Source: Gemmatimonadota bacterium (GTDB lineage Bacteria > Gemmatimonadota > Gemmatimonadetes > Gemmatimonadales > Gemmatimonadaceae). From it: DNA of 64,000 nt. The notes under the pieces were generated by a model, which worked only from the letters and a program-made list of their open reading frames with translations, ran no database searches and was not told the DNA's origin. Position numbers and translations under genes: made by a program. How positions within the stretch are numbered: the first letter of the stretch is position 1; every line of letters starts with the position of its first letter. Of this stretch, positions 8,968 through 63,389 are shown piece by piece. The DNA lies in the NCBI GenBank assembly GCA_028287305.1, contig JAQBPX010000028.1:62001-126000 (forward strand), written 5' to 3'.

Positions 8968-9455
8968 GGCGTGTAGGACTGGATGATCCCGCCGCGCGTC
9001 ATGCGCACGCGCCGCGAGAAGCCGTTGGACGAGAAGAGGATGTTCAGCGTGTCCGTCGCATATCCGCTGGGCATGATCTCCAGCAGCGGGTCGGTGGCGC
9101 GCGAGAAGCTGATGTTCGACGACGTGAGATTGAAGCCGGAATTGCCGCTGAAGCCCACGCGACGATAGACGGTGCCGGCGCGGTCGCGGATCTGCAGCTG
9201 CAGCGCGGACGACACCCACTTGATCTGCACCGGCTTGCGACTCCGCCCGGCGAGCGCGAATGCGAACTGCAGGTTCTGCTCGACTGCCGATGCCGCCTTC
9301 TGCACCCGCGTGTGCGTATTCTGCTTGCTGATCGCGCCGATGGAAATCGTCGCCATCACGCCCGCGACGGTGAGCACGAGGATCAATTCGATGATTGTAA
9401 AGCCGGCGAGCGACCCCAGGTGGGACCTGCGGGGACGCTGATACGTGCTATTCAT
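8964..9455 (-). CDS. FimT/GspH family pseudopilin
   Basis: A 163-residue pseudopilin with an 18-residue basic leader ending at Gly, then FTIIELILVLTVAGVMATISIG with Glu5; the globular part shows the GspH/FimT pattern (QNLQFAFALAGRSRKPVQIKW ...). In some species FimT binds DNA for uptake; the Arg/Lys-rich stretch AGRSRKPVQ and the C-terminal RRVRMTRGG are compatible but not proof. I chose the ATG at 9455; a GTG further upstream (9551) would add a non-pilin N-terminus. First gene of the operon. No major pilin, PilY1 or assembly ATPase is in the window. Confidence 0.82.
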   Translation of the reverse strand: MNSTYQRPRRSHLGSLAGFTIIELILVLTVAGVMATISIGAISKQNTHTRVQKAASAVEQNLQFAFALAGRSRKPVQIKWVSSALQLQIRDRAGTVYRRVGFSGNSGFNLTSSNISFSRATDPLLEIMPSGYATDTLNILFSSNGFSRRVRMTRGGIIQSYTP

Positions 9456-9655
9456 GTATGCCTGGGGTGGCAAGGAGTGAACCGGGCATGGCTGTAGTGC
9501 GAAAGACCCGTGACAGCAACGACTTACGGCCTTCCACCAGCCCCTGTTCACTGGACGAGCTGTTTATTCTGATGCAACATGACTCAATTATTGCAAATCG
9601 CGGTGACGCCCGTCACCCGCACTAGCTTTCCCTCACTCTCGCCGGGTGATGCTTT
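9456..9655. other. Spacer between divergent pilin and beta-oxidation operons
   Basis: 200 bp with no convincing gene. It is less GC-rich around 9560-9600 (TTTATTCTGATGCAACATGACTC), the likely promoter zone for one or both operons. No clear -35/-10 pair or palindrome could be assigned by eye. Confidence 0.4.
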
Positions 9656-11989
9656 GTGACTTCCGTTGACCTTCCGGGCGTGTCGCGCCCTGATCTCTCC
9701 CCGGGCCGCACACTGCGGACCCGCATCCGCAAGCTCGGCGTGGTCGGCGCCGGCACCATGGGCAACGGCATCGCTGCCCTCGCCGCCTCCGCCGGCGTTC
9801 CGGTGGTGCTGCTCGACATCCCCGGTCCCGAGGGCGACCGCAACGCGCCGGCGAAGGGAGGGCTCGATCGCGCGAGGAAGTCGAAGCCCGCGGCGTTCAT
9901 GGATCCCGACCGCGCGCAACTCGTTCGCATCGGCAACACCGAGGACGACCTGGAGTTGCTCTCCGACTGCGACCTCGTGATCGAGGCGATCATCGAGCAG
10001 CTCGAGCCCAAGCGCGCACTCTACGAGCGACTCGAGAAGGTGCTTCCACCCACCGCGATCGTCGCGAGCAACACGAGCGGCATCCCGATGCACATGCTCG
10101 TCGAGGGGCGCAGCGAGCGCTTCGCGCAGCGCTTCGTGGGCATGCACTTCTTCAACCCGCCGCGCTACCTGCACCTGCTTGAAATCATACCCACCGGGCT
10201 GACCTCCTCCGACGTGCTTGCAGAGGTGCGCCGCTTCAGCGAGCGCACCTTCGGAAAGGGCATCGTGGTCGCCAAGGACGTCCCCGGATTCGTGGCCAAC
10301 CGGCTCGGCGTCTACGGGATGGTGCTCGCGATGCGGCTGATGGAGCAGTACGACCTCACCATCGACGAAACCGACTTCCTCCTCGGCACCCTCACCGGGC
10401 GCGCGAAGAGTGCGGTGTTCCGCACTGCCGACCTCTCGGGCGTGGACGTCATCTGGCACGTGACCAGGGGGCTCGCGCAGACCACGGGCGAGGACTTCGC
10501 GCTCCCCGCATGGGTGAACACGCTCGTCGAAACCAAGCGCCTTGGCGAGAAGACCGGCGCGGGCTTCTACAAGAAGGTCGGAAAGGAGATCCAGGTACTC
10601 GACTGGAAGAACGACACGTACGCCGCGTCGAGGAAGCCCGAGGCGCCGGAGCTCGAGAAGCTGCAGCGCAAGCCGCTCGCCGAGCGACTGGCTGCGGTGA
10701 AGTCGATGGAAGGGAAGTACGGCGACTTCACGCGCGAGATGCTGCTGCGCTTTTCCCACTACGTGCTGGAGCGTGCCGACGAGATCGCGTACGACCTCGC
10801 CAGCGTGGACCAGGCGATGGAGTGGGGCTACGCCTGGGAGGCGGGTCCCGTGAAGCAGGTGGACCTGCTCGGCGTGGAGTTCGTGCGCGAAGGCTTCGCG
10901 AAGCTCGGGCTCAGCGAACCGAGGCTGCTGTCGCAGGTGCATGCCGCCGTGTCGCAGGGAGCGGCCGCGGGGAGTGCGCCGAGCGGGCAGCTCAAGCTCG
11001 ACGACCTGCGCAAGCGCGGCGCGGTGATCGAGGAGACGAAGGACGCGGCCATCCTCGACCTGGGCAGCGACGTGCTGCTGCTCGAGTTCCGCAGCAAGAT
11101 GAATTCGCTGGGCGAGGGCGTGATCACCATGCTGCACAGGGCGCTGGAGCAGGTGGCCAGCGGCGGGTATGCAGGGCTCGTGATCGGCAACGACGATCCG
11201 CGCACCTTCACCGCGGGCGCGGACCTCTTCCAGGTTGCAGCGGTGGTGCAGGCGGGCGAATGGAAGAAGCTCGACGCGGCCATCAAGGCGTTCCAGGACA
11301 CCTCGATGGCGCTGCGCGCGGCGCCCTTCCCCGTGGTGATCGCGCCCTTCGGGCTCACGCTCGGAGGCGGCTGCGAGTTCACGCTGCATGCCGATCGCGT
11401 GCAGTCGCATGCGGAGTTGTATTGCGGCCTCGTCGAGGTGGGCGTCGGGTTGATCCCCGGTGGCGGCGGCACCAAGGAGCTGCTGTTCCGCTTCACGCAG
11501 GAGCTGGCGCCGTACGACGAGGCCGACCCGTTCGAGGGCGTGAAGCGCGCGTTCAAGCTGATCGCGATGGCCGCCACGAGCACGAGCGCGCTCGAGGCGC
11601 GGAAGATGGGCTTCCTCCGCGAGGGCGATCGCATCTCGATGAACCGCGACCTGCTGATCGGCGACGCGAAGCAGCGCGTGCTCGACCTGGCCCCGGACTA
11701 CGTGACCCCGCAGCCGCGCACGATCGTCGCGCTTGGCCGCGAGGGCGTGGGCAACCTCGACTACGCCGCGTGGGCGATGAAGGAGGGCGGCTATGCGAGC
11801 GCGCACGACGTGAAGCTCGCGCACGAGGTGGCCTACGTCCTCTGTGGCGGTGATGGCCCGAGCCGCGTGGTCACGGAGCAGGACATTCTCGACCTGGAGC
11901 GCGACGCGTTCCTGCGACTCCTCGGCACCAGGGAGACGCAGGAGCGGATCGCGTTCACGCTGAAGACCGGCAAGCCCCTGAGGAACTGA
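9656..11989 (+). CDS. fadN: 3-hydroxyacyl-CoA dehydrogenase / enoyl-CoA hydratase, FadN-like
   Basis: A 777-residue bifunctional beta-oxidation enzyme. The NAD-binding domain comes first (GAGTMGNGIA from residue 31), with VGMHFFNPPRYLHL carrying catalytic His164, then the 3HCDH C-terminal domains to about residue 430. The enoyl-CoA hydratase/isomerase domain is C-terminal (about 470-680: FTAGADLF, GLTLGGGCEFTLHADR, GLIPGGGGTKEL). This order, dehydrogenase before hydratase, is that of Bacillus FadN and the reverse of E. coli FadB. The thiolase gene starts 3 bp after the stop, as in fadNA operons. The GTG start has no obvious ribosome-binding site; a slightly later start cannot be excluded. Confidence 0.93.
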   Translation: MTSVDLPGVSRPDLSPGRTLRTRIRKLGVVGAGTMGNGIAALAASAGVPVVLLDIPGPEGDRNAPAKGGLDRARKSKPAAFMDPDRAQLVRIGNTEDDLELLSDCDLVIEAIIEQLEPKRALYERLEKVLPPTAIVASNTSGIPMHMLVEGRSERFAQRFVGMHFFNPPRYLHLLEIIPTGLTSSDVLAEVRRFSERTFGKGIVVAKDVPGFVANRLGVYGMVLAMRLMEQYDLTIDETDFLLGTLTGRAKSAVFRTADLSGVDVIWHVTRGLAQTTGEDFALPAWVNTLVETKRLGEKTGAGFYKKVGKEIQVLDWKNDTYAASRKPEAPELEKLQRKPLAERLAAVKSMEGKYGDFTREMLLRFSHYVLERADEIAYDLASVDQAMEWGYAWEAGPVKQVDLLGVEFVREGFAKLGLSEPRLLSQVHAAVSQGAAAGSAPSGQLKLDDLRKRGAVIEETKDAAILDLGSDVLLLEFRSKMNSLGEGVITMLHRALEQVASGGYAGLVIGNDDPRTFTAGADLFQVAAVVQAGEWKKLDAAIKAFQDTSMALRAAPFPVVIAPFGLTLGGGCEFTLHADRVQSHAELYCGLVEVGVGLIPGGGGTKELLFRFTQELAPYDEADPFEGVKRAFKLIAMAATSTSALEARKMGFLREGDRISMNRDLLIGDAKQRVLDLAPDYVTPQPRTIVALGREGVGNLDYAAWAMKEGGYASAHDVKLAHEVAYVLCGGDGPSRVVTEQDILDLERDAFLRLLGTRETQERIAFTLKTGKPLRN

Positions 11990-55460: not shown

Positions 55461-56630
55461 CTAATTCCTCGTAAGCTTGATGGTGACGTCCTCCGAGAGT
55501 CCTTCGGCACTCGTGAGTGTGACCGTGACGTCGATCCGGCCTTTCTGCACGGTGAGATGCTCCGCGGTGAACACGATGAGCCGTCCCCACGGTATTCCCG
55601 TACCACCGGGTCCTTCCTTTTTCCAGCTGCCGCATCCCCCGGCGCGGGAGCTGACCGCCTTCGTCTCCGCGCTCCCTCGCGACATGGCCTCCACGCTGAG
55701 CGAGAAGACCTTGATGTTCGGGTCCGGCTCGCGGGTAATGCGCAGCTTCACCCGTCGCAGGATCCCCTTCGCCGACGCCGTGGACTCGGTGGCATCGATG
55801 ATGTCATCCGACACGTTGCTCACGTAGCCGGAGTCGCTGACCACTCCGTTCTTGTCCTGCGGGAAGCAGCCCTTGCTCCCCCACCTCGATTCCTCGATAC
55901 CCTTCGACGTCAACTCCGACGAGCCTTCGGTATCGATGTACGGCGGCTCGCCGGGCTTTCCGTGGGAAATCACGAACTTCCATGTGTCCTGCTCGTGCTG
56001 GTCGAGCTTCGAGATCTGCTGGCCGGTCGGATCTCCGTTCGGCTCCACCACATTCTTGTGCACGTTTGCCGTCCGCGAGTAGTCGAGGGTGCCGACCCAC
56101 GGGCAGATGTCATACTCCATCGCCCGCAGAGGCGCGAGGATCCCCTCCACGAAGTCATGTGCGCTCCAGTTCCACCCGTCGGCATCCATGCGATTGCGCA
56201 TTGGCACCTTGCCGGTCGCCACGTTGTACATCGTCGCCGAGGCGTAGCGGCCCGGTGATTCGTGCGTGGTGCCGGTGGAGCCGAACTCGAGGCTGATCAC
56301 GATCTCGGCCCCGACCAGTTCCGCAATGCGCTCGGTCATGTCCTCCGCGCTTCCCGAGATGAGCGCCTTTTCGCGGTCGTTGTTGGCCATCATCACGACG
56401 TCGTCAACCGTTCGCACGTTGGCGCACGGGAAGAGCTCGCGGACCTGCTGCTCGACCTGCGCGTAGATCGCATCGGCCGCCGCGGCATTCACGTTGCGCA
56501 CGAGCTTCGGTCGCAGCAACAGGATGCGGAACTGCTTCGGCGCGCCTGCCGCACGAGCGGGGGCGTTCGGCGTCGCGCCCGGGACGAGCAGCGAGAGTGC
56601 ACACATCAGCGTGGTGAGTCGGGGCATCAT
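55461..56630 (-). CDS. Exported protein with CsgG/LpoB/TolB-N-like N-terminal domain
   Basis: A 389-residue exported protein and last gene of the five-gene overlapping operon. After the signal peptide, FRILLLRPKLVRNVNAAAADAIYAQVEQQV ... VRTVDD ... ERIAELVGAEIVISLEF has the pattern of CsgG/LpoB/TolB-N domains. The second half is a Gly/Ser-rich region with strands (RVKLRITREPDPNIKVFSLSVEA) and ends in a beta-rich stretch (GRIDVTVTLTSAEGL). The start at 56630 overlaps the preceding stop by 4 bp (ATGA). Role unknown; the N-terminal domain type often acts in envelope assembly or as lipoprotein activator. Confidence 0.65.
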   Translation of the reverse strand: MMPRLTTLMCALSLLVPGATPNAPARAAGAPKQFRILLLRPKLVRNVNAAAADAIYAQVEQQVRELFPCANVRTVDDVVMMANNDREKALISGSAEDMTERIAELVGAEIVISLEFGSTGTTHESPGRYASATMYNVATGKVPMRNRMDADGWNWSAHDFVEGILAPLRAMEYDICPWVGTLDYSRTANVHKNVVEPNGDPTGQQISKLDQHEQDTWKFVISHGKPGEPPYIDTEGSSELTSKGIEESRWGSKGCFPQDKNGVVSDSGYVSNVSDDIIDATESTASAKGILRRVKLRITREPDPNIKVFSLSVEAMSRGSAETKAVSSRAGGCGSWKKEGPGGTGIPWGRLIVFTAEHLTVQKGRIDVTVTLTSAEGLSEDVTIKLTRN

Positions 56631-57172
56631 GGCTTCATCCTCGCCGCGTTGAACGTTCCCTTGAGCGTGACGACGATGTCCTTGTCGTCGGCATCGTTGC
56701 CGCACAGGCGAAGCTCGAACCGACCGGACACAGCGGCCGCGGTCGCGCTCGAGATCGAAACGGTTCCCGACTGCCCGCCGGCAAGCCACGTCGGCGTCAG
56801 CGGTGGGCCCCCTCGAAGGGTCACCGCCACGTCGCTCCGGGGCGGCGGCGGCGCGTCGTCGTCCGGTTCTTCGGGTGGGTCATCGTCTTCGCACGGCGAT
56901 TCATGGATCGTCAGCACGCCAGGGTGTGCCGAGGGCGCGCCGACTGGACGCTCGATGACGATCGTGGCACGGGCCGCTGCACTGCCAGCGCTGCTGAGGA
57001 CGACGAGCAGCGAGCCATCGGGCGCCACGCGGAACGCTGCGCGGCCCTCGAGGTGCGCGGGCGACGCGCCGGTCATTGTCGCTTCGAAGCAGTTACTCGT
57101 GCACGCCGCCGGCATCGGAGACCTGGCGAGCGCGAGCAGGGCCAGTGCGGCGAGTGTGTTGATCTGGCGCAT
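56627..57172 (-). CDS. Exported hypothetical protein with acidic/proline linker
   Basis: A 181-residue protein with a signal peptide (MRQINTLAALALLALARSPMPAA) and a Cys pair soon after (CTSNCFEA). Two beta-rich parts flank an Asp/Glu/Pro linker (PCEDDDPPEEPDDDAPPPP). The second part (VAVTLRGGPPLTPTWLAGG ... SGRFELRLCG) resembles the ends of its operon neighbours. Starts one base inside the stop of the upstream gene (TGATG). No family recognised. Confidence 0.6.
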   Translation of the reverse strand: MRQINTLAALALLALARSPMPAACTSNCFEATMTGASPAHLEGRAAFRVAPDGSLLVVLSSAGSAAARATIVIERPVGAPSAHPGVLTIHESPCEDDDPPEEPDDDAPPPPRSDVAVTLRGGPPLTPTWLAGGQSGTVSISSATAAAVSGRFELRLCGNDADDKDIVVTLKGTFNAARMKP

Positions 57173-58545
57173 CAGCAGTGCGCCGGCAGGTCGGTGAACG
57201 TCGCCGTCAGCTTGGCGCCCTTCGTCTCGCCCGATTGGTCGATGCCATCTGCGACAATCGTGAGGGACCCACTGAACGTCTTGCCGGCCTTCGTGATCGT
57301 CAGCGTGCCGCCGGTGGCCGAGAACGAGTTCGCGGACGTGCCGCTCCGGGAGAAGCCTACGGTGATCGTGGACGAGCCTTCCACGGCGATCGGGTAACTG
57401 CCCGGGCGCAGCCGCGTGTTGTTCCCAGTGATCAGGCCGACGCCGCCTTCGCCGGTGAGCTGGATGACGAATAGACTCTCGCCGCCGACCATGCAGACGG
57501 CGCCGGTGCCGCTCAGGGGGCCTGTCGGTGTCGTGGCCACGAACGTCCCGGCCGCGGCGAGCTCACGCTTCTCCCCGGCCGGTGGTACGGGACTGAGGCC
57601 GAGGGTCGTGGTGGTGACGGTGCCGGGTGGGAGGTGTCCCTTGCGGTTCCAGCGTTCGACATACATCTCGAATTCCTCGACCGCGAAGCCCTTCGAACCG
57701 ACGGCGTGTCGTCGGGCGACGATTCCGACGCCGGTCGCGTCCATCTGGAGCACGGCCGGTGGGGCGAGCGTGGGAGGGCGAAGCACGAGGGAAAACGTCC
57801 GCTCCGCCTGCGGCGTCGGAGAGGCACTCGAGCCGATGGTGGCCGAGAACCACTTCTCGAGTTCGAGACCGCGAGGGATCGACGTCGTGATCCGGATGTT
57901 CGGATGGTCGAAGCCAGGTCGATTCTCGCCCCTGATGAAGTCGCCCTGGAGCTGTACCGAGTCGAGTGTCACTGCCTGAATGGTCTGGCCATCGACCAGA
58001 ACCTGGAAGTTGGCGCGGAGGCAGTCATTTCGATCGGTCGAAGCCGGGATCTTGGTCGACGAAGGGGTGACCGGCGCGTATGAGCCCGGACGAAGGACCA
58101 CGGTCACGTTGCAGGCATCCTTCGACGAGGCATCGAAGGCGCCGAATGTCACGGAGAGGACCTGCGCGTCGACGGCCCTCGAGGTGAGCGTCGGCGTGCC
58201 GTTGAAATCGGTCGTCACGACATCGAAGGTCGTGCGCTGTCCGTCCAGGAAGGCGTCGAGCATCTGGATGAACGCCGCGTTCGGCCACTGGAACGTGACC
58301 TCGATGTCGTCCTGTACCACCCGTTGTCCCAGCTTCTTGTCCCGCGTTCCAAACTCGTCGGGCCCCTGTGCCTCCACGACGCCGTAGCGTGCCCCGCCCC
58401 TCAACGTCTTGACGGGGAGAATCGCAGAGCTGCCGACCTGGACGAACACCTTGGCAACCGTGTACGTACGTTCGTCCGCGGCCGCTCCCCCGGATCGCAT
58501 CGCCAGCGGCGAGATGGCCACCAGCACCATCCAGAAGCGCCTCAT
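57172..58545 (-). CDS. Exported protein with two phage tail-tube (gp19)-like segments
   Basis: A 457-residue exported protein. Residues about 28-155 and 176-297 each follow the pattern of T4 gp19/Pvc1 tail-tube domains: a start like FQVLVDGQTIQAVTLDSV, a middle with LELEKWFSATI or AFIQMLDAFLDG, and an end like GFAVEEFEMYVER or FDASSKDACNVTVVL. The remainder (about 330-457) is beta-rich (GKTFSGSLTIVADG). A signal peptide and no other phage genes argue against a prophage; it may be an envelope or extracellular tube-like protein. The gp19 relation is my reading of weak patterns. Overlaps both neighbours (4 bp, 1 bp). Confidence 0.5.
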   Translation of the reverse strand: MRRFWMVLVAISPLAMRSGGAAADERTYTVAKVFVQVGSSAILPVKTLRGGARYGVVEAQGPDEFGTRDKKLGQRVVQDDIEVTFQWPNAAFIQMLDAFLDGQRTTFDVVTTDFNGTPTLTSRAVDAQVLSVTFGAFDASSKDACNVTVVLRPGSYAPVTPSSTKIPASTDRNDCLRANFQVLVDGQTIQAVTLDSVQLQGDFIRGENRPGFDHPNIRITTSIPRGLELEKWFSATIGSSASPTPQAERTFSLVLRPPTLAPPAVLQMDATGVGIVARRHAVGSKGFAVEEFEMYVERWNRKGHLPPGTVTTTTLGLSPVPPAGEKRELAAAGTFVATTPTGPLSGTGAVCMVGGESLFVIQLTGEGGVGLITGNNTRLRPGSYPIAVEGSSTITVGFSRSGTSANSFSATGGTLTITKAGKTFSGSLTIVADGIDQSGETKGAKLTATFTDLPAHC

Positions 58546-59039
58546 TTCGGCGGCCCCTTCGCCGCGCCCTCACACCCCGCGGCCTGGCCTGCGTCGAACG
58601 TCCCTTCCGCTCGCACCACCTTGCCTGCGCCACCCTTGGCCGCGGCGGAGAACTTGAAGCTGCCCGTGACGTGCGTCGCGTCGATGCGGCTGAACGTCAC
58701 GGTGCCCTCCGTCGCCTCGTAGCGCGTCCACCGCACGGGTTCCTTCCCCGTGGTCTTGTCGGTCACCCCGGCCGTCACCACGCCATCGCCGATCACATGG
58801 CTGCCCGAGGTGGGTGCGCCCTTCGACGACGCAATCTTCACCGCCCATTGCTCGTTGTTCGCCGCGAAGGCGAAGACGCTGATGGTCATCTTCCCGAACG
58901 TGGCGCTCGTGGTGCAGAAGCCTCCGTCGTGCATCTCGACGCTGCCGCTCTTGCCCCCCGAGAGCGTCATGCTCACGCGTCCCCCGGAGGCGAGCGCCAG
59001 CGACGCAAGCGCCGCGAGCATCATCGCGCGCGCGCTCAT
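58542..59039 (-). CDS. Exported beta-rich hypothetical protein (DUF6252-like pattern)
   Basis: A 165-residue exported protein. After the signal peptide it is beta-rich, with TVTFSRIDATHVTGSFKFSA and VVRAEGTFDAG, a pattern like the small secreted DUF6252-type proteins of Bacteroidota. Two cysteines (GGFCTTS, AGCEGA) could pair. It overlaps the OmpA-like gene upstream and the tail-tube-like gene downstream by 4 bp each, so expression is tightly coupled. Confidence 0.55.
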   Translation of the reverse strand: MSARAMMLAALASLALASGGRVSMTLSGGKSGSVEMHDGGFCTTSATFGKMTISVFAFAANNEQWAVKIASSKGAPTSGSHVIGDGVVTAGVTDKTTGKEPVRWTRYEATEGTVTFSRIDATHVTGSFKFSAAAKGGAGKVVRAEGTFDAGQAAGCEGAAKGPPK

Positions 59040-60400
59040 GGGACCTTCACCAGCTCGACGCGACGATTGGCCTGGCGTCCTTCCGGCGTGGTGTTGAGGG
59101 CGACCGGCTTGCCCTGCCCCATGCCGCGCGGCGTGAGGCGACCCTCTCCCACGTGCAGCGTGCCAGTGAGATACGCCACGATCGCCTGCGCGCGCTTCTG
59201 CGACAGTGCGAGGTTCGCCGCGGGCGTGCCCGAATTGTCGGTGTGCCCTTCGACCACCAGCTTGAGGTCCGCATGCTCGGACAGCATGTCACCGATGATC
59301 TTCAGCGTGGGCGTCGACTCGCCACGAATACGGTCGCTGCCCACGTCGAACAGGATGCCCTGCGTGGCCACGTGGCCATCGGCGAGCAGCGCGTCATACA
59401 GCTTCTTGCCCCCCGCATTCACGCTCAGGTTGCCGATGAGCGGAAAGGCCTGCTCGGTCGGCCCGTCGTACTCGAAGATGATCTTGTTCGCGCGCCCGAA
59501 GTCGGCGTTCGGGATGTTCGCGATGCGCTTCTCATCCATGTACACCTTCACGTAGCGACCATCCGCCTCCATGCGGATGTGGAAGACGCGGCTGTTGTCT
59601 TCCTTCTCGCCGCCGAACATGTCGGGGTACTGCGTGCGCGGATCCACCAGCGATCCCTCGGTGCTCTTCGCGCGCGTCACGCCCGCCGTGGGTCCCGTGA
59701 AGAGCACGGTGGCCACGTCGCGATCCGGGGTCTGGATCCCCAGCTTGTCCGCCCCGGCCGCCGAGTAGAACGCGAACCCATTCCACGGAATGGTTGCGTC
59801 GAACTCCATGGTGAAGCGCTGCCCCAGCTTCTCGGGCAGCGGGACGGCGAAGATCGTCGGGCTGCTCATCCGCAGCCAGCGGCCGCCCTTCCACTCCACC
59901 ACCTCGGCGTTGCCACTCACCAGCTCGAGGCGCTGCGGGAAGTTGCCCACGCGGTCCTTCGAAAAGTCCTCCGAGAAGAGCACGCGCTCACCCGGCACGA
60001 AGTCGAAGTTGCTCCAGGCGCCCTGGCCCGGGGCGCCCGCCTGCTTCGGCGCGTCTGCGCTGCCTTCGCCCGAGGCGGGAGCCGCCGCGGCAGGCGCCAC
60101 GCGTGCAGGAGAGTCCTTCGGCTGCTTCGACGGCGGCAGCACGGTGCCTGAGCTGTCCGTGAGCACCACCTTCTTGCCCGCCTCCTTCGCGCGCTTCGGG
60201 CAGTCCGCATCGCCCACGATGCATGCGAACGCCCCGTCGAACTCCTCGAGCACTCGATCCTCCGCCTGCTCGACCTTTTGCTCGGCGCGCTCCTTCACCT
60301 TCTGCTTGAGCCGATCGCCCAGCCCCTGTGCCTGAACGCCCGGCAGGGCGAGAACGAGAAGGGCCAGTACAACTAACGAAGTACGTAACGAGCGTTTCAT
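59036..60400 (-). CDS. OmpA family protein with concanavalin-like N-terminal domain
   Basis: A 454-residue envelope protein, first gene of the five-gene operon. Signal peptide, a short Lys/Glu-rich helix (DRLKQKVKERAEQKVEQAED), an Ala/Pro linker, a laminin-G/concanavalin-like beta domain (about 130-315: VLFSEDFSKDRVGNFPQRLELVSG ...), and a C-terminal OmpA peptidoglycan-binding domain (LKLVVEGHTDNSGTPAANLALSQKRAQAI ... RRVEL). It probably anchors a surface or periplasmic complex to peptidoglycan. GAGG ribosome-binding site before the ATG at 60400. Confidence 0.88.
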   Translation of the reverse strand: MKRSLRTSLVVLALLVLALPGVQAQGLGDRLKQKVKERAEQKVEQAEDRVLEEFDGAFACIVGDADCPKRAKEAGKKVVLTDSSGTVLPPSKQPKDSPARVAPAAAAPASGEGSADAPKQAGAPGQGAWSNFDFVPGERVLFSEDFSKDRVGNFPQRLELVSGNAEVVEWKGGRWLRMSSPTIFAVPLPEKLGQRFTMEFDATIPWNGFAFYSAAGADKLGIQTPDRDVATVLFTGPTAGVTRAKSTEGSLVDPRTQYPDMFGGEKEDNSRVFHIRMEADGRYVKVYMDEKRIANIPNADFGRANKIIFEYDGPTEQAFPLIGNLSVNAGGKKLYDALLADGHVATQGILFDVGSDRIRGESTPTLKIIGDMLSEHADLKLVVEGHTDNSGTPAANLALSQKRAQAIVAYLTGTLHVGEGRLTPRGMGQGKPVALNTTPEGRQANRRVELVKVP

Positions 60401-60545: not shown

Positions 60546-63389
60546 GTGATCCACCTCAGGTTGCTGGGCACCGTGGACGCGCGGGACGACCTCGGCGCGC
60601 CGCTCAAGCGGATCATCGCGCAGCCCAAGCGGCTGGCGCTGCTGGCGTACCTGGCGCTTGGAAATGGCCAGCTTCGCATGCGCGACCTGCTCCTCGCCCA
60701 GTTCTGGCCGGAGCTCGACACCACCCACGCGCGAGCGGCGCTCCGCCAGGCGCTGCATCACCTGCGTCGCGACCTTGGGGAGGGTGCGATCACCGGTGAG
60801 GGTGAAGGCCTCGCGATGAACATGGCCCTTGTGCAGTGCGACGCCTGCGACTTCGCGCGACATGTGACCGCGGGCGACGATGCAGCAGCCCTCGACTGCT
60901 ACGGCGGCACCCTGCTCGACGGCGTGCACGTGAGCGATGCCTCCACGGAATGGGAAGCGTGGCTCGATGGCGAGCGCGCCAGGCTGCGCGACATGGCGCT
61001 GGCCGCGGCGCGGCGCCTCGTCTCCGCGGCGCGAGCGCGCGGCGACCTGGAGGGCGCGGTGACGCTCGCTCGTCGTGCCTGCCAGCTGGCGCCGGACGAC
61101 GACGCGACCGCCTGCGCGCTCGTGAGCGCACTTTCCGCACAGGGTGACGCGTGCGGCGCGCTGCGCGTCCACGAGGCGTTCGCCAGGCGGATGCGGCGCG
61201 AGTTCGAGCTCGACGTCTCGCCGGAGATGACCGCGCTGGTCGCGCGCATTCGCAGCGAGGAGCGGTCGGCACCGGGCATCATCACGCCGGTGGAGGCGGC
61301 GGCGATCATCTCGGCCCCGCACGCGGTGCGGAGCACCGAGCGAAGCTGGCCGAGGAAGCGCGCACTGGCGGTGGCAGTGATGGCGATGGCCGCATTCGCT
61401 GCAGCGCTCGCATGGCGGGCCAGCCATGCGCCGGAACCCACGGTGCTCGCCATCGGCCTCATTCGCGACCACACCGGCTCGCCGGAGCTTGCGGCTGCAG
61501 TGAGCGAGCTGCTCGCAACGGACATGGCACGCGACGCGGGGTCTCGCGTCATCAGCACCCCGCGCATGTTCGAGCTGCTCACGCAGGTGGACAGCGCGGG
61601 CGGCGAGCGCCAGCGCATGGCTCGCGCTGCGCGACTGGCCGGCGCCGACGAATTCCTGGAGGGTGCACTCTACCGCGACTCCACCGGCCTTCGGCTGGAG
61701 CTCGACCGCGTGGACCTCCGCACCGGTCGCGCGGTGAACTCGCGCACGATTTCGGGCGCCGATCCATTCGTGCTCGCGGAGCGCGCGACGGGCGGCGTGC
61801 TCGGCACCATGCGCATCGGCCCGCCGCGCGGGCGACTGCAGGACGTCGTCGCCAACTCTCCCATGGCGCTGCGCTTCTACCAGGAGGGAGTGCGCGCTCG
61901 ATCGCAGAACGACATGGCGGCGGCCAAGCGCTTTTTCGCCGCCGCGGTGGCGGAGGACTCCTCCTTCGCGATGGCCACCTTTGCGCTCGCCGTGATGCAG
62001 GACTCGGTGGGCCCGCTGCACTACCGGGCGCTCCACCTGGCCGAGCGGACTTCCGATCGTGAACGCCTCCTGATCCAGGCCACGCTCGCTCACACCTTCG
62101 ACGATCCGGCGGCGCTCGCATTTGCCGAGACGCTGGCCGTGCGCTATCCGTCCGAGCCGGACGGCGCGCTGATGCTCGGCCAGGCGCTGGTCTATGAGGG
62201 CCGGCCCGCCGAGGCGATCCCGCCGTTGCGCCAGGTGATCGCCATGGACTCGGCGAGCCTGCGCTCGAGCGACGCCTGCCGCGCGTGCGAGGCCTACTCC
62301 GAGCTGGCGTCGGCGTACACCCACATGGATTCGATGCAGGCAGCGGAGCGCGTGGCGCGGGAGTACCATGCGCGCGCGCCGGCCCGGGTGCAGTCGCTCT
62401 ATCCACTGATCGACATCCTCGACGACCAGCGGCACTTCGACGAGGTGCGCGCCCTGCTCGGACAGATGGAGGTTGCCAACGGCTCCGCGCTCGGCGAGTA
62501 CGGACACCGGGCGGACCTCCTGATCAAGGAAGGTCGATTCGGCGAGGCCGAGGCCTACCTGCAGCGCGTGATAGAATCGACGCATGGCGACGACCGCGCG
62601 AACGCGCAGTGGGGATATACCATCCTCCTGCGCAACGAGGGACGATATCGCGAGGCGCTCGCGCTCGCCGAGGTGCTGCGCCAGCGCGACGCCCGCCCGC
62701 CGGCGGCATTCGCCCAGCGATACTGGAGCGGCGGGATGCGCGCAATGATCCTGCACGACATGGGACGCTACGCCGAGGTGATTGCGCTGCGAGATTCTTC
62801 CATGCGGACGCCCTATGGTTCGACGCTCACGCGCAAGTCACGCAGCCTTGCCGGCGAGATGACGCAGGCGGCCGCGGCGCGCGCGGAGATGGGTGACACC
62901 GCGGGGCTGCGGACAATCGCCGAGCAGGTCGAGTTTCACGGGAGCCGCACCGGATATGGAATGGTGCGCCGGTTCCATCATTATGTTCGCGGCCTTCGGT
63001 ACGGACTGCTGGGGCGGCACGAGGACGCCGTGCGCGAGCTGCGCGCGTCCATCTTCTCCCCGGTCACGGGCTTCGTGCGCGAGAACTATGAACTGGGCAA
63101 GGAACTACTGGCCGCCGGACGCCCGGCCGAGGCGGCGTACTGGTTCGACGCCGGGTTGCGTGGGCCGCTTGGCGCTGGTGGCCTGGGCGTCACCCGACCG
63201 AAGCTCGAGTTGATGCTCGGGCGCGCCCGCGAGCGGATGGGCGACACGCTGGGTGCCGTCGCCAGCTACGAGTATGCGATGGCAGCCTGGGAGCACGCCG
63301 ATCCGGTCGTGCATCCCATGCGCGCGGAGGCGGCGAGCCGCGTTCAGGCACTCCGCGCGGTGAGGGTGAAGAACTCCACGATGCGCTGA
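60546..63389 (+). CDS. Membrane-anchored BTAD regulator with TolB-N-like and TPR domains
   Basis: A 947-residue one-component regulator. A winged-helix DNA-binding domain (about 1-90: [32 protein letters not shown]) and a BTAD helical domain (about 95-240) precede one transmembrane helix (about 272-290). The outer part has a TolB-N-like domain (about 298-405, [12 protein letters not shown] ... [11 protein letters not shown]) and then many TPR helices to the end. This layout resembles CadC-like or SARP-type regulators that sense envelope conditions. It is divergent from the exported five-gene operon, which it likely controls (inference). GTG start; a weak AAAG is the only ribosome-binding-site candidate. 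Confidence 0.85.

Follow-up and report, generated by a model that had tools for sequence, protein, structure and literature searches.

Tail-tube folds are known from phage tails, contractile particles, gene transfer agents and type VI secretion, and the question raised by this locus is what such a fold does in a protein that carries an export signal and lies away from the genes of any such machine. The window, meaning the whole 64,000-nucleotide stretch of the Gemmatimonadota contig that was analysed, contains the gene P0001 on its minus strand, at exactly the coordinates proposed in a preceding sequence-only reading. The frame is taken as coding because a homologue, designated P0002, exists in an Acidobacteriota genome. 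A signal peptide had also been claimed for P0001, and it is clear both to the eye and in the hydropathy profile; it is of the Sec type and reads MRRFWMVLVAISPLAMRSGGAAA followed by DE. Judged by this N-terminus, the protein is very probably exported, and passage through the Sec pathway would deliver it to the periplasm. The features of the locus and of the homologue are given in Table 1.

Table 1 Positions of P0001, its parts, its operon partners and its Acidobacteriota homologue (window coordinates, except for P0002)
Feature	Position	Strand	Basis or remark
OmpA-family exported protein, operon gene 1	59036..60400	minus	PF00691, E 3.4e-18
165-aa exported protein	58542..59039	minus	4-base overlap with P0001; sub-threshold DUF6252 match
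P0001, exported protein with tandem tail-tube-like domains, 457 aa	57172..58545	minus	ORF call and homologue P0002
Signal peptide, P0001 residues 1-23	58477..58545	minus	Sequence inspection and hydropathy
Tail-tube-like domain 1, residues 24-158	58072..58476	minus	AlphaFold without MSA, Foldseek, VIA-align; joint profile 97.4 %
Tail-tube-like domain 2, residues ~171-305	57631..58035	minus	hhalign to gp19 profile with controls; joint profile 93.4 %
C-terminal region, residues 306-457	57175..57630	minus	Without Pfam match
181-aa exported protein	56627..57172	minus	Start overlaps P0001 stop codon
388-aa exported orphan protein, last of five	55461..56627	minus	
BTAD/TPR transcriptional regulator	60546-63389	plus	Divergent from operon, ~120 bases between
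P0002, 346 aa, Acidobacteriota	G634:C1, L205:1210-2250; in L208 inside ORF 9182-10318	minus	

Family searches did not recognise P0001. Scans against Pfam, PHROGs and NCBIfam returned nothing significant, as did phmmer against the PDB sequences; PF06841 gave no match even at E-values up to 10, which leaves the protein below the curated Pfam cut-off, and in the Pfam scan neither an Hcp family nor, for the C-terminal region, any family was matched. Profile comparison was carried out with a gp19 profile made from 40 PF06841 proteins taken from related genomes. Residues 166-305 of P0001 were aligned to this profile end to end by hhalign (129 columns, score 33.9, probability 76 %). None of 300 shuffles scored above 24.3, and the highest of 405 slices of unrelated ORFs, at 30.3, covered only 29 columns. 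Domain 1 by itself scored 13.9 to 15.7 in the right register, which is not significant. The joint two-sequence profile of P0001 and P0002 gave two successive end-to-end gp19 domains at the probabilities listed in Table 1, and through the Acidobacteriota homologue both domains are thus significant. The gp19-type motifs of domain 2 stand where the sequence-only reading had placed them (ANFQVLVDG at residues 178-186, LELEKWF at 227-233 and AVEEFEMYVERW at 288-299), and inspection of domain 1 found DIEVTFQW (80-87), the helix FIQMLDAFLDG (92-102) and CNVTVVLR (145-152). A MAFFT alignment of domain 1 to domain 2 was unreliable and was set aside.

P0002 was the one clear relative obtained when 396 Acidobacteriota genomes were searched with residues 24-305 (E 3.2e-6, 27 % identity over 205 residues). 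BLAST of P0001 against P0002 gave an E-value of 6e-11 as a single comparison, and a score of 47.8 bits, where 200 shuffles reached 21.9 at most. The homologue passes the PF06841 cut-off in two stretches (E 1.8e-14), contains the twin-arginine motif TRREFLGK and is surrounded by DnaK, GlmS and regulator genes, with no injection locus. Like P0001 it is exported, has its gp19 domains in tandem and lies away from injection loci; unlike P0001 it has a Tat and not a Sec signal, and it lacks both the C-terminal region and an adjoining OmpA gene. Family searches label it simply as a tail tube. Two weaker Acidobacteriota rows were rejected; one, at L207, coincides with an apparent lipoyl synthase gene.

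The AlphaFold model of full-length P0001 was poor (pLDDT 35). Its Foldseek matches in the PDB fell mainly into two groups, phage tube and baseplate chains, which led the list, and dihydrofolate reductases; none had an E-value below 0.05. The model was too poor to be used alone and only the type of these matches was taken from it. Domain 1 (residues 24-158) was modelled separately by AlphaFold without an alignment, so the gp19 fold cannot have been copied from aligned relatives, and this model (pLDDT 61.7, pTM 0.60) has, in the numbering of the fragment, strands at 10-13, 19-24 and 58-64, a helix at 67-77 and further strands at 82-89, 95-114 and 122-130. The top Foldseek matches were a Streptomyces contractile tube, the PVC tube (Pvc1), lambda gpV and the AFP tube (Afp1), with Hcp close behind (best match E 6.4e-4, probability 1.00). 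In VIA-align, tail tubes and Hcp made up nearly all of the top 50 (Z 6.7-8.4 over ~90-110 residues), and a library of viral structures again returned tail tube proteins. What these searches returned for domain 1 is therefore a tail-tube beta-barrel with one helix, in a model with a pLDDT of only 62, and not the unrelated fold that would have spoken against the sequence-only reading. Near the tube rows in VIA-align stood a flavin reductase-type chain (Z 7.7) and a PilZ protein (Z 6.7); split-barrel chains score so close to the tubes that the fold alone is insufficient to settle the identity of domain 1.

The profile of domain 2, the model of domain 1 and the bridge through P0002 agree with one another, and the two gp19/Pvc1-like segments described from the letters alone are upheld; P0001 almost certainly carries two tube-type domains. 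It is very hard to believe that the likeness arose by chance in domains unrelated to tail tubes, as might be argued from the insignificant sequence score of domain 1 and the silence of every family library, when a controlled profile match, a fold match obtained without an alignment and an intermediate homologue all point the same way. By homology, established through profile comparison, P0001 is a member of the tail-tube/Hcp fold superfamily, and it is not a formal member of PF06841, an Hcp or a hub of the VgrG/gp27 type. It resembles T4 gp19, Pvc1 and Afp1 (PF06841) in domain fold, strand order, the single helix and the end-to-end profile match, and differs from them in its two fused domains, its signal peptide, its C-terminal region, its position below the Pfam cut-off and the lack of sheath or baseplate genes nearby. 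With Hcp (TssD) of type VI secretion it shares the fold class, Hcp chains being among the structural matches of domain 1, whereas it has no Hcp-family sequence match and its genome has no Hcp.

The tubes of contractile and type VI machines are not known to need a signal peptide for assembly; a functional tube of a contractile system would be expected to lack an export signal and to assemble in the cytoplasm, and inspection of P0001 shows a Sec-type signal. In eCIS loci, tail-tube proteins (Phage_T4_gp19) belong to the core, as do sheath, spike and baseplate (PMC8213781). The sequence-only reading had noticed no tail, baseplate or sheath genes near P0001, and a scan of ~30 proteins of the window bore this out, with no tube or spike gene found either; the genome-wide scan, which covered gp19 (PF06841), sheath and Hcp, found none above cut-off, and the genome, in 39 contigs, is rated 100 % complete. 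A sheath-profile match (E 0.038) outside the window, at L204 (G000:C16:390799-390948) within a 3369-aa frame, was taken as chance. P0001 is accordingly judged, with high confidence, not to be part of an injection machine. It could still belong to a contractile or type VI-like machine that has diverged beyond recognition, or be loaded onto one from the periplasm, given that its domains are homologous to the tubes of such machines and that about one tenth of the related genomes searched carry normal gp19 tubes; this is improbable in view of the genome-wide result and the signal peptide, and P0002 likewise lies outside such a locus.

Within the phylum, the search of 298 sampled genomes found only P0001 itself, one row at E 9.5e-4 being rejected as a relative. 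No relatives were found in genome contigs, viral contigs, plasmids or phages; among phages the C-terminal region alone gave a match (E 0.3). Relatives of P0001 are rare in the genomes searched, and a query as divergent as this one misses many. Similar tandem proteins probably occur in Myxococcota. For exported stand-alone tandem tail-tube proteins no description was found in the open literature, subscription papers being outside the scope of the search. The lack of close relatives within the phylum might suggest a functionless remnant of a decaying prophage or injection locus that became fused to a signal peptide by chance. Such an origin is very unlikely for a gene with an intact frame and a typical third-position GC (0.84, in a genome with a high GC of 68 %) that is coupled into a five-gene operon and whose homologue in another phylum shares its tandem plan and likewise carries an export signal.

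The arrangement of two tube-type domains in one chain is shared with T4 gp27, Mu gp44 and the N-terminal part of VgrG. The two homologous tube domains of T4 gp27, only 4 % identical, make up a pseudo-six-fold torus when three chains assemble, and they are homologous to Hcp1 as well (PMC3004832). P0001 differs from gp27 and VgrG in being exported and in that the best PDB matches of domain 1 are tubes of the gp19/Pvc1 type, and neither a gp5-like OB domain nor a beta-helix needle was matched by Pfam in P0001 or in the operon partners scanned. Since gp27, with two fused tube domains, makes its torus from a trimer, a trimeric ring is the most likely form that an assembly of P0001 would take, and by this analogy ring formation through trimerisation is tentatively suggested. 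The best explanation of the locus, to which a probability of about 45 % is given, is that a tail-tube module has been reused outside injection machines as a trimeric ring of the cell envelope. On this proposal mature P0001, which has tandem tube domains and is encoded in a five-gene operon led by an OmpA-family protein, would be exported by Sec to the periplasm, and three copies would form a short, hollow, pseudo-hexameric ring like that of gp27. Anchored by its C-terminal region and by the OmpA-family protein, the ring would serve as a collar, either structural or channel-like. If this is true, a stand-alone exported two-domain version, in a genome lacking recognisable parts of an injection machine, would represent a self-assembling module taken over for an envelope task. 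The group would also be one hidden from annotation, P0001 being missed entirely by family searches and P0002 labelled by its domain only.

Some observations count against a ring. In T4, gp27 apparently needs gp5 in order to trimerise (PMC3004832), and a gp5-like partner was not seen at this locus. In the SPP1 tube protein gp17.1, removal of the loop that stacks the rings stops self-polymerisation (PMC8718954); in domain 1 the prediction for the equivalent stretch is poor (pLDDT below 50 at model residues 25-51), and in domain 2 this stretch is shorter. The results fit a tube, a short ring or the absence of any ring equally well. The main competing explanation is that the tube domains serve as a monomeric or dimeric beta-barrel scaffold in an exported protein with a binding or structural role in the envelope or at the cell surface, with neither ring nor lumen. 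This has a real, if less than even, chance of being right: the fold lies near common split barrels, as the flavin reductase-type and PilZ chains indicate, and P0001 is highly divergent from gp19, with an ill-formed stacking loop and an extra C-terminal region. Against it, the tandem plan has been kept across two phyla, which fits a symmetric assembly better, and this is no proof.

The proposed trimeric envelope ring would lean on the operon for its attachment. Five genes, P0001 being the third, overlap one another by a few bases and are translationally coupled, and by inspection all five products start with a hydrophobic, signal-like stretch. Peptidoglycan binding is expected of the OmpA-family protein from its family. 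The link between this protein and P0001 is one of position only, because the operon partners are orphans. A sample of 150 genomes of the phylum contained homologues of the OmpA-family gene in 33 cases; in the 20 neighbourhoods examined, no relative of P0001 lay downstream and the gene order was not conserved. It is doubtful, if conceivable, that there exists an exported tandem tail-tube family in at least two phyla which, without an injection machine, forms hollow envelope rings or short tubes tied to the peptidoglycan by an OmpA-family partner; this would be a new envelope structure built from a phage part.

For the 388-aa protein no acceptable relative was found in 298 genomes of the phylum, and its apparent homologues, a PDZ protein and a polyketide cyclase-like protein, were spurious. 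The 165-aa and 181-aa proteins have a common C-terminal segment of ~43 residues (0 of 1000 shuffles scored as high), which suggests a duplicated module flanking the tube-domain gene; kinship of this pair with the C-terminal region of P0001 was tested and was not significant. The divergently transcribed BTAD/TPR protein is a candidate regulator of the operon, and elsewhere the window encodes peptidases, histidine kinases, a thiolase, a CLC channel and similar genes.
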